Source: Streptomyces vilmorinianum
Lineage (GTDB): Bacteria; Actinomycetota; Actinomycetes; Streptomycetales; Streptomycetaceae
Direction of reading: 5' to 3'
Length of the DNA stretch: 64,000 bases
Assembly: GCF_005517195.1 (NCBI RefSeq)
Contig: NZ_CP040244.1
Location: 5,226,001 to 5,290,000, forward strand
Below are positions 54,515-62,151 of the stretch, piece by piece. How positions within the stretch are numbered: the stretch's first letter is position 1; each line of letters begins with the position of its first letter. Made by a program: the position numbers and the translations under genes. Under the pieces are notes generated by a model. The model was not told where the DNA came from, searched no databases, and saw only the letters and a program-made list of their open reading frames with translations.

Positions 54515-55270
54515 TTGTCGCTACGCGTCAACGGGACGGCACTCATCATCGCGGCGCTGGTCGCGACGGTCGGCGCGCTCGCCTTCCCCGTCTGGTCCTA
54601 CGCCGACCGCTCAGGAACGGGGCAGGCGAACCTCAACGCGTCGAGCGTGGCCACCCAGTGGGGTCCGCTCTCGGCCACGGACCGGGATCTGCTGGTCAAG
54701 GTCCGGCTGGCCGGCCTCTGGGAGCTCCCTGCCGGGCAGCAGGCGATCCAGCGCGCCCCGAGCCGGGCGATCGTGGAGTGCGGCGACCACCTCGTCGTCG
54801 GCCACACGGACCTGGACCGGCGGGCCAGGGACGTGGCGGCGAAGCTGGGCGTGGAGCTGCCGAACCAGCCGACCGAGCAGCAGCAGGGGTGGCTGCGGGA
54901 GCTGACGGCGGCGAGCGGGGAGGAGTACGAGCGCAAGTTCGCGAACATTCTGCGCAACGCGCACGGGAAGGTGTTCGCGCTGATCGCGGAGGTCCGGCAC
55001 ACCACACGCAACGCGCTGATCCGGCAGCTGGCGAGCGACGCGAACCAGACGGTGCTCGACCACATCACCATGCTGGAGGCGACCGGGATGGTCGACTACG
55101 ACGCGCTGGCGAACGAGGCGGCGGGGCGGAAGACGGCGCCGCCGACCGGGCCGCCGGTGGTGCCGTCGCCCGCGGTGCCCTCGCCGGCGCGGCCGTCGGG
55201 GACGGACCAGTCGTTCACGTCGCGGCCGGCGCCGGAGGCGGGGATCGTGACGCCGCATTCCCAGCCGTAG
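54515..55270 (+). CDS. DUF4142-like exported protein
   Basis: 251 residues. N-terminal signal or anchor ([23 protein letters not shown]), a DUF4142-type helical domain: [26 protein letters not shown] and [35 protein letters not shown] ... [18 protein letters not shown]. The last ~50 residues are Pro-rich and disordered. Function unknown. A TTG start at 54515 has GGGAGA about ten bases upstream. It lies 98 bp before the MNIO gene on the same strand; membership of that locus is suggested by orientation only. Confidence 0.8.
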
Positions 55271-55368: not shown

Positions 55369-57021
55369 ATGACGGCACGGAACACGGAACTCGGCATCGG
55401 CATCGGCTGGCGGCCGGAGATCGCGGAGGCGGTGGAGGCGCTGCCCGGGGTCGACTGGGTGGAGGTCGTCGCGGAGAACCTCTGCGCGGGCCACCTCCCC
55501 GACTCGCTGACGCGGCTGCGCGCGCGGGGCGTGACGGTGGTCCCGCACGGGGTGTCGCTGGGGCTCGGCGGCGCGGACCGGCCGGACGCGGGGCGGCTCG
55601 CCGAGCTGGCGGCGAAGGCGACGGCGCTGGGCGCGCCGCTGGTGACGGAGCACATCGCGTTCGTACGGGCCGGGGGGCCGCTGACCGCGTCCCCGCTCCT
55701 GGAGGCGGGCCACCTGCTGCCCGTGCCGCGCACGTGGGACGCGCTGGAGGTCCTGTGTGAGAACGTCCGGATCGCGCAGGACGCGCTGCCGGTGCCGCTG
55801 GCCCTGGAGAACATCGCGGCGCTGATCTCCTGGCCGGGCGAGGAGCTGACGGAGGGCCAGTTCCTGGCGGAGCTGGTGGAGCGTACGGGGGTACGGCTCC
55901 TCATCGACGTCGCCAACCTCCACACGAACCACGTCAACCGCGGCGAGGACCCGTCGAAGGCCCTCGCCGAACTCCCGGTCGAGGCCATCGCGTACGTCCA
56001 TGTCGCGGGCGGCGTCGAACGCGACGGCGTCTGGCACGACACCCACGCCCACCCGGTCCCCGCCCCGGTCCTCGCGATCCTGTCGGACCTGGCGTCCCGG
56101 GTCTCCCCGCCGGGCGTCCTTCTGGAGCGGGACGACGACTTCCCGCCGGCGCAGGAGCTGGCGGCTGAACTGTCGACGATCCGGACGACGGTGACGGGGG
56201 CGGGGGCGGGGGCGGCGCCGGCGGGGGCCGCCGTGGGCGCCCCGGCGCGCCCTGCGGTCTCCGCGGGCACGACCACGGCGGACGCGGCGGACGACGCTGC
56301 GACGCGGTCCGCCGATCGCCCGCTGCTCATCGGCGCGGGCGCCCGTGTCTCGGGCGGCCCGATGCCGCGGCCTCAGCGGGCGGCGGGCGAGTCGCTCGAC
56401 TCCGCGCCACCGGGCCCGCGCGGGGGCCCGGTGCCTGCCCCCGGCCCGGCGGCCACGTGCGCCCCCGAGGCGCAGGGGGCCCGGGGGCGTGCCCCCGGTT
56501 TCGGGGAGGGGCGGGGCGGGGGAAGGCCCCGCGCGGCGGAGGTGCCCGAGACACCTGGGCCCGAGGCACCTGGGCCCGAGGCGCAGGGGGGCCGCGCTCC
56601 CCGGGGCGGGGAGCGGGCCCGGGAGCGAGTCGGGGTCGCGCAGGTCGCGTTGTTGTCCGCGCTCGTCGCCGGGACGCCCGCGCCCGAGGGGTTCGACACG
56701 CGGCGGCTCGGCGTGCAGAGTCGCGCGCTCACGGCCAAGCGGGCCGACGTCGTCGCCAAGGTCGCCCCTGAGCTGCCCGAGATCCTCGGCGACGGCTACC
56801 GGCCCGCGTTCCGCGCGTACGCCAGGTCCCGCCCCATGACCGGCGGCTACCGGCGCGACGCCCTCGGCTTCGTCGAGCACCTGCTCGTCACCGGCCGCCC
56901 CGAGGACCCGGACGCCCGGCGCCTGCTCACCCGCTGGTGGCAGGAGCGCGCCGGCACCCGCCCGCCCGGCCGGGCGACCCGCCTGATCCACGCGGCCCGC
57001 GCCGCGCTCGTACGGAGGTAG
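55369..57021 (+). CDS. MNIO (DUF692) enzyme fused to a DUF2063-like domain
   Basis: 550 residues. Residues 1-270 form the MNIO triose-phosphate-isomerase-like domain with metal-binding candidates: H in VPHGVS near 59, EH in VTEHIAF near 93, E in LENIAAL, D and H in [13 protein letters not shown] near 180-188, H in AYVHVAGG near 211, D-H-H in WHDTHAHP, and E in LLERDDDFP. Residues ~271-420 are a Gly/Pro/Ala/Arg linker. Residues ~420-550 ([20 protein letters not shown] ... [17 protein letters not shown]) look like a DUF2063/BufC-type partner domain. GGAGGGGG precedes the ATG. The next gene starts six bases later. Confidence 0.85.
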
Positions 57022-57027
57022 AGAGAC

Positions 57028-58113
57028 ATGACCGGTTTCGCCGTACTCATCTGGGTCGCGGTTCTCGTCAGCTCGGGGCTGCTGATCGCCCGGGCCCGCT
57101 CCATCCGGTCGGACCGGGGCGGCGCCTCCGCGCACGACCTCGCCGAGGCCGCCTTCCTGGCCGGCGGCCCGCCCCGGGTCGTGGACACGGCCCTGGCGAC
57201 CCTGCACGCCGAGGGACTGATCGGGGTCGGCGGCCCCGGCCTCGTCGTCGTGCTCCGCCCCGACCTGCGGGCCCGGGACCATGTCGGCCGTGCCGTCCTG
57301 GAGCAGCTCGCCGCCGCCCCGAGCGGCGCCCTGCACGAGCTGCGCCTCGCGGTGATGCGGAGCCCCGCCGTGCAGGAGATCGGCGACGGTCTCGCGGCGC
57401 GCGGGCTGATGGTGGCACCGGAGCGGCGCCTCGCGGTCAGGCGGTGGTGCCTCGCCCAGGGGCTCGGCTCCTTCGCGGTGCTGGTCCTCTCCATGGTGAT
57501 CACCCTCGGCGTCGACGGTCCCTTCGGCGCGGTGCCGTTCGTCATCACGGTGATGCCCGTCCTCGTGCTGGGCGTGTTCGTCGCGCTCATCTGCGGCGCG
57601 TTCAACGCCGGGCGCATCACCCGCGCGGGGCAGCGGGCGGCGGCCGCGTACCACCGGGATCACGTCTATCTGCAGGACGCCGGCCACCAGGTCGCGCTGC
57701 GCGGGCTGCGCGCCGTGCCGGACCCGGAGCTGCGGGAGCAGCTGATCGCGGCGGCCCGGAGGTACGGCTCGCGCCCCGGGCAGCAGCCGTTCCCGCGCGC
57801 GTCGCGCAGCCGCTCCTCGCAGCACGGCTCGTCGGACACGGCGGCCCTCATGGTGCTCGCGTGGTGCGGCGGCAGCCCGGGCAACGGGGGTGCGTGCGGC
57901 GGCGCGAGCGGCGGAGGCGGCGGCGGATCCTCCTGCGGCGGCGGGTCCTCGTGCGGGGGCGGGGGCGGCTGCTCGGCGAGCGCCTGCTCCGGTGGAGGCG
58001 GCGGATCCAGTTGTTCGAGCTCGAGCGGCAGCTCCGGCAGCTCCTGTTCCAGCTCCAGCGGAAGCTCGTGCTCCAGCAGCAGCGGTTCGAGCTGCTCCAG
58101 TTCGAGCGGCTGA
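57028..58113 (+). CDS. TIGR04222-domain membrane protein with Cys/Ser/Gly-rich tail
   Basis: 361 residues. TM1 at residues 3-23; then the TIGR04222 core (SAHDLAEAAFLAGGPPRVVDTALATLHAEGLI, about 38-70), and two more membrane segments near 145-165 and 170-195. From about residue 278 the chain is Gly/Ser/Cys-rich and contains ten cysteines, ending in repeats of GSSCSSSS. Orientation suggests the tail may be exposed outside or inside the membrane; it resembles cysteine-rich RiPP-like substrates. A GGAGG overlapping the MNIO stop and a six-base gap make the two genes translationally coupled. Function unknown. Confidence 0.85.
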   Translation: MTGFAVLIWVAVLVSSGLLIARARSIRSDRGGASAHDLAEAAFLAGGPPRVVDTALATLHAEGLIGVGGPGLVVVLRPDLRARDHVGRAVLEQLAAAPSGALHELRLAVMRSPAVQEIGDGLAARGLMVAPERRLAVRRWCLAQGLGSFAVLVLSMVITLGVDGPFGAVPFVITVMPVLVLGVFVALICGAFNAGRITRAGQRAAAAYHRDHVYLQDAGHQVALRGLRAVPDPELREQLIAAARRYGSRPGQQPFPRASRSRSSQHGSSDTAALMVLAWCGGSPGNGGACGGASGGGGGGSSCGGGSSCGGGGGCSASACSGGGGGSSCSSSSGSSGSSCSSSSGSSCSSSSGSSCSSSSG

Positions 58114-59878: not shown

Positions 59879-60592
59879 TCAGGCCAGGCCCGCCACCAGT
59901 TCCGCCACGGAGCGGCGGCGGCCGGTGTAGAACGGGACCTCCTCGCGGACGTGCATCCGCGCCTCGGAGCCGCGCAGGTGGCGCATCAGGTCGACGATGC
60001 GGTGCAGCTCGTCGGCCTCGAAGGCGAGGAGCCACTCGTAGTCGCCGAGCGAGAACGAGGCGACCGTGTTGGCGCGGACGTCGGGGAAGCCGCGGGCCAT
60101 CTTGCCGTGGTCCGCGAGCATCCGGCGGCGGTCCTCGTCCGGCAGCAGGTACCAGTCGTAGGAGCGCACGAAGGGGTAGACGCTCACGTAGTCGCGGGGG
60201 GTCTCGTCGGCCAGGAAGGCCGGGATGTGCGACTTGTTGAACTCGGCGGGGCGGTGCAGCGCCATGTTCGACCAGACCGGCTCGAGGGCGCGGCCCAGCT
60301 TGGTGCGGCGGAAGAGGTTGTACGCCTCCTGGAGCTCGTCGCTCGTCTCGGCGTGCCACCAGATCATGACATCGGCGTCGGCGCGCAGACCGGAGAGGTC
60401 GTACGTGCCACGGACGGTGATGTCCTTGGCGGCGAGCTGGTCGAACAGCTCCTGGACCTCGTCGGCGTAGCCGGCACGGTCCTCGGGCAGGTTGTCGCGC
60501 AGCTTGAACACAGACCACAGGGTGTAGCGGATGACCTCGTTGAGGTCCTTCGCCTTCTTACCGGCGTTCGGGATCTTTTCGGGCGCACTCAT
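59879..60592 (-). CDS. hemQ: coproheme decarboxylase HemQ
   Basis: 237-residue chlorite-dismutase-family protein that converts coproheme to haem b in the actinobacterial coproporphyrin-dependent pathway. [15 protein letters not shown] at the N-terminus, a Tyr in [14 protein letters not shown] and the proximal-His region [14 protein letters not shown] are visible. Downstream of cgoX by 17 bp on the same strand, so both are likely on one mRNA. Converges with the exported peptidase gene at a strong terminator. Confidence 0.95.
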
Positions 60593-60609
60593 ACGCCTAT
60601 TCTCGCCCG

Positions 60610-62151
60610 TCACGGACAGTGCCCTGCACCAGGGTGGGTGGTTTCCGACGTGGCGATGATCTCGTCCAGGATCTCGTCGGCGGCGCGGTGGCCTGAGGCG
60701 ATGCAGGCGGGGATGCCGACACCTTCGTACACGGCCCCCGCGAGGCGCAGTCCGGGCAGCCCGGCGACGGCCTCGCGGACGCGGGCGACCCGGGCGAGGT
60801 GGCCGACGGGGTACTGGGGCAGACCGCCGGTCCAGCGGGTGACGGTGGTGGCGACGGGGCGGGCCGTCAGGCCGGCCGCCGCGCCGAGGTCCTTCAGCGA
60901 GGCCTCGACGAGGTCGGCGTCGTCGCGCAGGACCTGCTCCTCCTCGCCGTAGCGGCCGACGGAGGTACGGAGCACGAAGAGGTCGGGGGCCGCGTCGGAG
61001 ACCCACTGCCACTTCTGGCTGGAGAAGGTGGACGCCTTGATGGTGTGTCCGTCGACGGGCGGCACGAGGAACCCGGAGCCGGGCAGGGCCTGCACGTCGG
61101 AGCGCCGGAAGGCGAGGGTGACCAGGGCCATCGAGGCGTACTCGACGTCTCCGAGCTCGGCGGCGGCGCGGGGCGCCTCGCCGGAGAGCAGCTCGGCGGC
61201 GGACCAGGCGGGGCTCGCGACGACCACGCCGTCGGCGAGGAAGACCCGGTCGCCGGCGACGACGCGCCACCGCGTGCCGGCGGTGGCGCCGCGTGGGGCA
61301 GCGGGCTCGGGGCCGCGCCGGCCGCCGGGCTCCGCTGCGAAGGCCCCCGCGGGGCTCTCCGGGCCGTCCGCCGGCACGCGGCGGAGCTCGGTCACCGGGG
61401 TACGGGTCAGGATCTCGCCGCCCGCCGCGCGGATCGCGGCGGCGACGGCGTCGGGCAGGGTGCCGATGCCGCCCTCGATGCCCATGAAGGCGGAGCCGCC
61501 GAGGCCGGTGGCCGCGCCCGCCGCGTCCGAGGGGGTCGCGGCGCCCGCCTGCTGGACGGCGCGGACGGCCTCGGTGAGCGTCGGGTGGACGCGGGCGGCG
61601 GCGAAGAGCGCGGGGACGGCGGCCCGCATCGAGATCCGGTACGCGTCGCCCGCGTACACGCCGCCGAGCAGCGGCTCGACCAGCCGGTCGACGACCTCGT
61701 GGCCCATCCGGTCGGCGACGTACGCGCCGATCGCGATGTCCTCGCCGATCTCGGCGGGCGGCAGGTCGTGATCGTGGGCGACGCGGCGTACTCCCTCCTC
61801 GGAGAGGAGGTCCGTGAGCGCGGCGGCGTCGCCGGGGACGCCCATCACATGGCCCTTGGGCATCGGGCGCAGTGCCCCGCGGGTCCAGACGGACGCGGTG
61901 GTGGTGGCGGGCGGGCGCAGGCGGTCCCCGAGCCCGACGGCGCGGGCGAGCGCGACCGCCTCGGGGCGGCGGGCGAGCAGCGACTCGGCGCCGAGGTCGA
62001 CGGGGGCGCCGGCGATCTCTCCGGCGAGGAGCTTGCCGCCGGGCCGGTCGCCCGCTTCGAGCAGGGTCACCGAGAGGCCCGCCGACACCAGCCGGTGCGC
62101 GGCGGCGAGTCCGGCGATGCCGCCTCCGACGACAACAACGTGCGCGTTCAT
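60610..62151 (-). CDS. cgoX: coproporphyrinogen III oxidase/protoporphyrinogen oxidase (HemY/CgoX type)
   Basis: 513-residue FAD enzyme. The N-terminal dinucleotide motif is [20 protein letters not shown], followed by [12 protein letters not shown]; a C-terminal FAD segment [20 protein letters not shown] is present. Usually annotated hemG/hemY. In actinobacteria, which use HemQ, the enzyme oxidises coproporphyrinogen III to coproporphyrin III, so cgoX is the better name. Operon with hemQ. Divergent from the DUF4349 gene; GTTCCG/CGGAAC (62172-62187) forms a dyad between them. Confidence 0.94.

Follow-up and report, generated by a model that had tools for sequence, protein, structure and literature searches.

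A fused MNIO enzyme in Streptomyces vilmorinianum and cysteine tails of membrane proteins as its candidate substrates

Gene organisation of the locus

We describe two adjoining genes of Streptomyces vilmorinianum, one for a fusion of an MNIO enzyme with a partner-like domain and one for a TIGR04222 membrane protein with a cysteine-rich tail. They lie in a stretch of 64,000 nucleotides (contig NZ_CP040244.1, positions 5,226,001 to 5,290,000), here called the window, and coordinates are counted from its first letter. The host genome is a single contig of 7.6 Mb with one MNIO gene and two TIGR04222 genes. The MNIO gene starts with ATG at 55369 and stops at 57019-57021, and the TIGR04222 gene starts with ATG at 57028, six bases past that stop. 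The features are:

55369..57021, +, MNIO-partner fusion gene, 550 residues: enzyme domain, low-complexity linker and partner-like domain, in that order
55393..56190, +, MNIO domain (MbnB_TglH_ChrH, PF05114), residues 9-274, by profile match
56191..56616, +, low-complexity linker of about 145 residues separating both domain matches
56617..57018, +, partner-like helical domain (PME-type 2 / DUF2063-like), from profile, model and fold comparison; an open reading frame (ORF) of its own in other families
57028..58113, +, TIGR04222 membrane protein ("A type"), 361 residues, candidate substrate carrier
57031..57108, +, membrane helix 1, residues 2-27, as modelled
57418..57510, +, membrane helix 2, residues 131-161, as modelled
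57532..57603, +, membrane helix 3, residues 169-192, as modelled, followed by basic residues
57781..58110, +, low-confidence, probably disordered C-terminal region, residues 252-361, with the Cys/Gly/Ser tail, from model and sequence
54515..55270, +, DUF4142 protein upstream of the MNIO gene, profile E 1e-18

The match of the 550-residue protein to PF05114 (residues 9-274) scores 265.3 bits against a curated cut-off of 25, and the best NCBIfam MNIO model is BufB (NF050167) with 182.1 bits, short of its equivalog cut-off of 310. Residues H60, H95, E147, D180, N183, H211, D224, H226 and E253 stand at the iron-ligand positions of TglH, as listed in the ligand passage of PMC10880893, the correspondence being drawn by eye from conserved motifs. 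They are kept in 35 of 35 rows in each of two Streptomyces groups. No signal peptide was seen by eye, and the linker measures 28-237 residues in the Streptomyces relatives measured. The TIGR04222 match covers residues 7-231 (148.9 bits, cut-off 43), and the protein has 12 cysteines, 10 of them behind the domain among glycines and serines. An earlier note on this DNA had read both things from the letters, namely one polypeptide with an MNIO domain and a partner-like C-terminal domain, and six bases on a TIGR04222 gene with ten tail cysteines, and both are confirmed. The fusion is probably a self-contained MNIO holoenzyme, with a tethered partner domain that elsewhere is encoded apart.

A Trp-Cys pair at residues 279-280 marks the start of the tail region and is invariant in 18 A-type proteins. 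In the 29 loci measured, no more than some twelve bases separate the enzyme gene from the start of the A-type gene, where the two do not overlap outright. An AlphaFold2 model of the TIGR04222 protein gave nothing significant against PDB (best E 0.27). The second TIGR04222 gene of the host genome (G000:C1:5062096, L082; G, C and L are our handles for genomes, contigs and loci) has a Gly-rich tail without cysteine and no MNIO gene nearby.

The C-terminal domain of the enzyme

The earlier note had likened the C-terminal domain to DUF2063. By profile search this is a hint only, and the support from structure is not conclusive. PF09836 (DUF2063), the PME-type 1 signature, was not reached in the window protein: E is 0.13 and the score 13.0 bits, below the cut-off of 27.2, for the C-terminal part in the full protein, E is 0.085 for the trimmed domain, and 3 of 31 aligned relatives of the domain match at E up to 1.

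The distribution of the domain was followed in 196 genomes drawn from the class, of which 44 have MNIO; the surroundings of 50 MNIO places were fetched. The domain was detected in 45 of these 50 loci. In 26 of them it shares the ORF of the enzyme (18 in Streptomyces, 8 elsewhere), and in the remaining 19 it has an ORF of its own. The five loci without it have lower MNIO scores and no TIGR04222 gene. All 34 loci with a TIGR04222 gene beside MNIO hold the domain, one of them (L059) as a partial match; the TIGR04222 gene of L054, counted among the 34, was found in a separate look. L189 is not taken as fused, as its partner domain lies in another frame than MNIO and in frame with TIGR04222, a frameshift that is either real or due to the draft assembly. 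At G034:C1:5645744 (L137) a Cys-tailed TIGR04222 protein runs in frame into a stretch that by eye is partner-like, as if an intervening MNIO gene had been lost.

An AlphaFold2 model of the domain, made from 45 Streptomyces sequences (pLDDT 82.9), is helical. Aligned to 160 chains with VIA-align, it had 8hi7_A (Z 6.3) and 8hci_A (Z 6.2) of TglHI and 7dz9_C (Z 5.8) of MbnABC as ranks 1-3, and the next chain after these scored Z 4.3. From their lengths we take the three chains to be the partners TglI and MbnC, the MNIO chains of those entries being others. The Neisseria partner 3dee, the yardstick in PMC12452194, was not among the 160 chains, which has no bearing either way. Some results speak on the other side. 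Foldseek of the domain model against PDB gave no significant match (best E 2.2), and the sequence profile of the domain against PDB chains gave no partner protein but two unrelated rows at E about 0.9. A Z near 6 for a helical domain may also reflect a common arrangement. The Foldseek and profile results leave the fold support good but short of conclusive. Taken together with its occurrence as a separate ORF in other loci, the fold ranking makes it very probable that this domain is the partner, and a partner function is what we infer for it.

Cysteine tails across the class

The earlier note would have been refuted if DUF692 and TIGR04222 genes did not co-occur beyond this lineage; their pairing was searched for there, and the note was not refuted. 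A Cys-Gly tail on a TIGR04222 protein occurs in 27 of the 44 MNIO genomes and in 1 of the 152 without MNIO (kinship uncorrected), and by the genome labels these tails are spread over eight families. The enzyme-linked tails exceed chance.

An A-type gene with 7-10 tail cysteines stands behind the enzyme in 6 of the 18 MNIO Streptomyces of the class sample. The other 12 lack it, 10 of them having only a TIGR04222 paralogue without the tail (the B type) and 2 having no TIGR04222 gene; in G187 the B type is unlinked and the enzyme contig ends 158 bases behind the gene, so that the absence of the A type is less sure there. We also looked at named Streptomyces loci, the best 80 of 564 relatives found. 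The fusion was seen in 79 of them; 36 have the A type, 32 the B type only and 8 neither, while 4 end early. Two clades of the enzyme tree differ in this respect: the A type is present in 35 of the 40 rows of the one to which the window enzyme belongs, and in none of the 35 rows of the other. The median omega of the MNIO domain, estimated by simple counting from pairs whose dS lay between 0.1 and 1, is 0.115 in the clade without the A type (595 pairs) versus 0.167 in the A group. As the tail gene is absent from 12 of 18 Streptomyces, and the enzyme is under purifying selection in the clade that lost it, the tail next door cannot be the sole substrate, and another one must exist where it is lacking. 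The earlier note had the tail as the substrate, and this has to be divided: as a likely substrate the tail stands, as the sole one it does not.

Some side observations belong here. The enzyme gene is alone in some species (L175, L198, L200, L207). The B-type gene is usually near the MNIO gene in Streptomyces loci, and those seen have Cys-x-x-x-Cys at the end of the first helix (e.g. L071, L074, L076). In two Streptomyces without MNIO (G289:C1:1413901 and G338:C1:1736014; L339, L340) the match to the A profile is interrupted by a stop codon, which gives the impression of a decaying gene. In a genome without the A type, an ORF of L249 (G063:C23, 2182-3109) resembles by eye a TIGR04222 protein that has diverged and whose tail is of the CGGGCGGG type, and the tested part of it matched no NCBIfam model. 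Short precursor peptides near enzymes without the A type were sought by comparing short ORFs all against all; this gave 469 candidates and was rejected, as the 60 inspected resembled shadow frames of other genes.

Single-helix mini proteins

The same tail is carried by a second anchor, unrelated to TIGR04222, in proteins of about 70-120 residues with one helix, which we call minis. They were reached by a DNA-pattern search of 15 genomes; the pattern itself was unenriched (a reversed control was similar), and repeated tail-like matches were taken by eye. A mini has a helix at its N terminus, then basic residues and a Trp-Trp-Ala-like motif, and its tail ends in repeats such as SSCGGGGGCGGGS. 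No NCBIfam model matched the three minis searched. Among 90 distinct minis from MNIO genomes (L249 and L315 contribute none, and the duplicates G250=G197 and G035=G216 are counted once), 89 have 3-7 cysteines, the exception being a second short ORF of L324 with a single one, and 89 have the Trp motif (Trp-Trp/Ala/Ser/Val).

Both tail families are in operon linkage with the enzyme in some genomes. In four MNIO loci outside Streptomyces that lack TIGR04222 there is a mini that overlaps the 3' end of MNIO (L034, L036 and L043) or that of the partner ORF (in L045). The minis of Streptomyces, in the loci looked at, lie away from MNIO between an aminotransferase-like gene and a DUF2617-like gene, both so judged by eye. 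The mini profile matches 12 of the 19 Streptomyces of the class sample. The genome of the window has a tandem pair of minis (C1:255125-255397 and 255485-255709), and tandems were seen in several genomes (L366, L368-L375 and others), often with one Ser/Cys-rich and one Gly/Cys-rich tail. When both anchors are counted, a Cys-tailed membrane protein is present in 42 of the 43 class-sample genomes that have MNIO and the partner domain. These are the 27 with TIGR04222 tails, G034 (also TIGR04222), 11 Streptomyces by the mini profile, G170 with a mini at the conserved chromosomal place, and G066 and G105 with minis in the MNIO locus. The suggestion of the earlier note that the substrate is anchored in the membrane rather than free is supported, and the minis are likely further substrates.

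We dropped the idea that minis substitute for the A type one for one. The mini profile initially matched 11 of 12 class-sample genomes without the A type and 1 of 6 with it, and in the named genomes (50 of the 80 loci) it matched 21 of 25 versus 15 of 25, two of the 15 with internal stops. The conserved place held minis irrespective of the A type, in 4 profile-missed genomes without it and in all 8 looked at, of 10 missed, with it.

An MNIO gene was detected in 143 of the 150 Streptomyces genomes searched, and in most of these the open frame is long, as would be expected of the fused kind. We compared 26 genomes with MNIO, taken in order, with all 7 without it, and skipped G270 (weak match) and G273 (another MNIO kind fits better). 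The mini profile matched 20 of 26 with MNIO and 1 of 7 without, A-type genes were found in 10 of 26 (weak and with an internal stop in G260) and 0 of 7, and either of them in 24 of 26 versus 1 of 7. Because the profile misses divergent minis, the place beside the DUF2617-like gene was inspected in 30 genomes (29 distinct), namely the profile-negative ones with MNIO plus six without MNIO. A mini with at least three tail cysteines stands at this place in 21 of 23 distinct MNIO Streptomyces (the end is masked in G259), and none was seen there in G256, at a contig edge, and G260. The six Streptomyces without MNIO have a one-helix protein at the same place with 0, 0, 1, 2, 2 and 2 tail cysteines; the two without cysteine (G076 and G367) were recognised by eye.

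Topology of the tails

Hydropathy shows three hydrophobic helices in 17 of 18 A-type proteins, and the AlphaFold2 model of the TIGR04222 protein has three such helices and a low-confidence tail. Basic residues follow helices 1 and 3 and precede helix 2, with few between helices 2 and 3. In 85 of the 90 minis the helix is preceded by no Lys or Arg, and the median number behind it is six. Under the positive-inside rule, this charge bias suggests that both kinds of tails are cytoplasmic, on the same side as the enzyme without signal peptide, as far as hydropathy and charge can tell.

Neighbouring genes

Many Streptomyces loci have a relative of the DUF4142 protein, either before or behind the MNIO gene. 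The genes downstream, at 59879-62151 on the reverse strand, are presumably, as judged by eye, those of the coproheme decarboxylase HemQ and a porphyrinogen oxidase, and similar genes hold the same place in several Streptomyces loci. A CsoR-like operator had 3 matches in the window, and as many were found in 28 of 100 shuffles.

Discussion

The link between MNIO and TIGR04222, the cysteines in Ser/Gly-rich C-terminal regions and the PME-type 2 partners are known from the relevant passages of Antoine et al. 2025 (PMC12452194). What is new here, as far as those passages go, is the partner-like domain fused to the MNIO enzyme, a substrate beyond the neighbouring tail, the second anchor and the suggestion of a cytoplasmic tail. 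The passages on fusions and chimaeras in PMC12452194 name no MNIO-partner fusion. A full-text literature search for TIGR04222 gave, besides that paper, only a Pseudonocardia genome paper, and "adjamnio" was found in PMC12452194 alone. Our clusters resemble the published ones in having TIGR04222 with Gly/Ser-tail cysteines beside MNIO and PME-type 2 partners, but differ in that the partner is fused to the enzyme and that a second anchor carries the tail. A partner domain, fused or separate, accompanies the TIGR04222-linked MNIO in all 34 actinobacterial loci here, compared with at least 10% of the TIGR04222 clusters in the wider survey, going by the figure given there. The published prediction places the TIGR04222 tails in the periplasm, whereas the charge bias here points to the cytoplasm.

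Other MNIO systems give further comparisons. Bufferins and captophorins (BufABC; fontiphorin FonABC, in the part of PMC13097082 that treats them) are similar in that BufB is the best NCBIfam model of the window enzyme, in several candidate cysteines and in a DUF2063-like partner. Their precursors have Sec signal peptides, however, while the carriers here are integral membrane proteins, and their partner is of PME-type 1 (DUF2063 plus RRE) instead of a short DUF2063-like domain. The TglHI and MbnBC holoenzymes are also made of MNIO plus partner and contain the best fold matches of the C-terminal domain, and our enzyme has the iron-ligand positions of TglH, but they are two separate polypeptides with soluble peptide substrates. 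Adjamnio-V in PMC12452194, compared here by its description only (very small, without structural homology), comprises very small proteins just after MNIO genes and may include the minis in MNIO loci. Minis away from MNIO, as in Streptomyces, would escape a neighbour search.

We hypothesize that the flexible linker of the fusion holds partner and enzyme together, and that the tail would be bound by the partner domain, for which the Trp motif in front of the tail, present on both anchors, may serve as the handle. The iron site would then oxidise the cysteines in turn, in Gly/Ser/Cys tails on the cytoplasmic side of the membrane anchors; in the host genome the candidate tails are those of the adjoining TIGR04222 protein and of the two tandem minis elsewhere in the chromosome. 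BufB-kind enzymes install copper-binding 5-thiooxazoles, according to the passage in PMC13097082, and by analogy the product could be a membrane-tethered array of modified cysteines, perhaps 5-thiooxazoles binding copper, which would act as a metal sink at the inner face of the membrane. The tail may stay attached to its anchor. We put the probability that a fused MNIO holoenzyme oxidises cysteines in such cytoplasmic tails, with the modified array and metal sink as outcome, at roughly 0.7. That the tails are substrates is well supported but unproven, the modification itself is what we infer, and 5-thiooxazole as product and copper as metal are suggested by analogy.

The enzyme could instead act on another, unseen substrate, and merely share a niche of metal or redox stress with the tails, which we consider unlikely. 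The species with the enzyme gene alone would fit this, and since our search aimed at Cys-Gly/Ser tails, substrates of a different kind would escape it; moreover, when short Cys-rich ORFs conserved around the enzyme were sought, shadow frames swamped the result. Against it stand the four genomes in which a tail gene overlaps that of MNIO or of the partner, and the tail protein in 42 of the 43 genomes with enzyme and partner, as compared with G067 alone among the other 153 (by profiles, the mini profile being insensitive). The six Streptomyces that lack MNIO and keep the anchor, with few or no tail cysteines, also argue against it. Somewhat less probable still is that the tails are unmodified Cys-rich metal ligands, and that MNIO serves their assembly or redox state with no covalent change. 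Many cysteines in a flexible Gly/Ser/His context do suit plain metal binding, but the residues at the iron-ligand positions are invariant here, and the characterised MNIO enzymes, in the passages of PMC12452194 and PMC13097082 on them, oxidise their substrates covalently. The reading of the earlier note, with the adjoining TIGR04222 tail as sole substrate and the enzyme as a relic elsewhere, is very improbable. It draws on the tight or overlapping A-type gene in the 29 measured loci, but purifying selection is no weaker without the A type, and the ligand positions are all kept there (35 of 35 rows).

Several observations do not sit well with oxidation of the tails by the fused enzyme. In the tail count 72 TIGR04222 proteins were kept (those remaining once matches below the cut-off and further pieces of a frame already counted had been dropped; the tail start is an estimate where the match is partial), and among them fewer than three tail cysteines are found in 14 of the 38 within 5 kb of MNIO, 11 of these being Streptomyces B type. 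Three or more are found in 8 of the 34 unlinked ones, 5 of them in genomes with MNIO elsewhere. G160 has the enzyme but no Cys tail, and G067 has a Cys tail at a contig edge and no MNIO. In G252, a draft of 740 contigs in which MNIO was not found, a multi-cysteine mini runs into the contig end. A single branch of the DUF2617 tree splits the Streptomyces with MNIO from those without it in 84% of bootstrap trees, and the contrast in mini cysteines may thus be a single event, by loss or gain. A weak fourth segment is seen in part of the TIGR04222 proteins from other families, and for those the published periplasmic view may hold.

A broader picture would be of a one-protein holoenzyme in Streptomyces and related actinobacteria that, partly in trans, builds arrays of modified cysteines on several cytoplasm-facing tails, as a membrane-bound branch of the thiooxazole metal-binding products; we give this wider version about even odds. 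The tail would then be a transferable unit on unrelated anchors, and the products would be modified resident membrane proteins rather than exported peptides. The survey in PMC12452194, in its passage on the subject, leaves open whether and how TIGR04222 proteins are modified without a visible partner gene, and the partner-like domain in all 34 TIGR04222-linked loci, fused or in a neighbouring ORF, bears on this question. With some 90 residues, a mini offers a far simpler candidate substrate than the TIGR04222 protein. With MNIO in nearly all Streptomyces genomes searched, the genus may commonly modify resident membrane proteins in a way not yet described.

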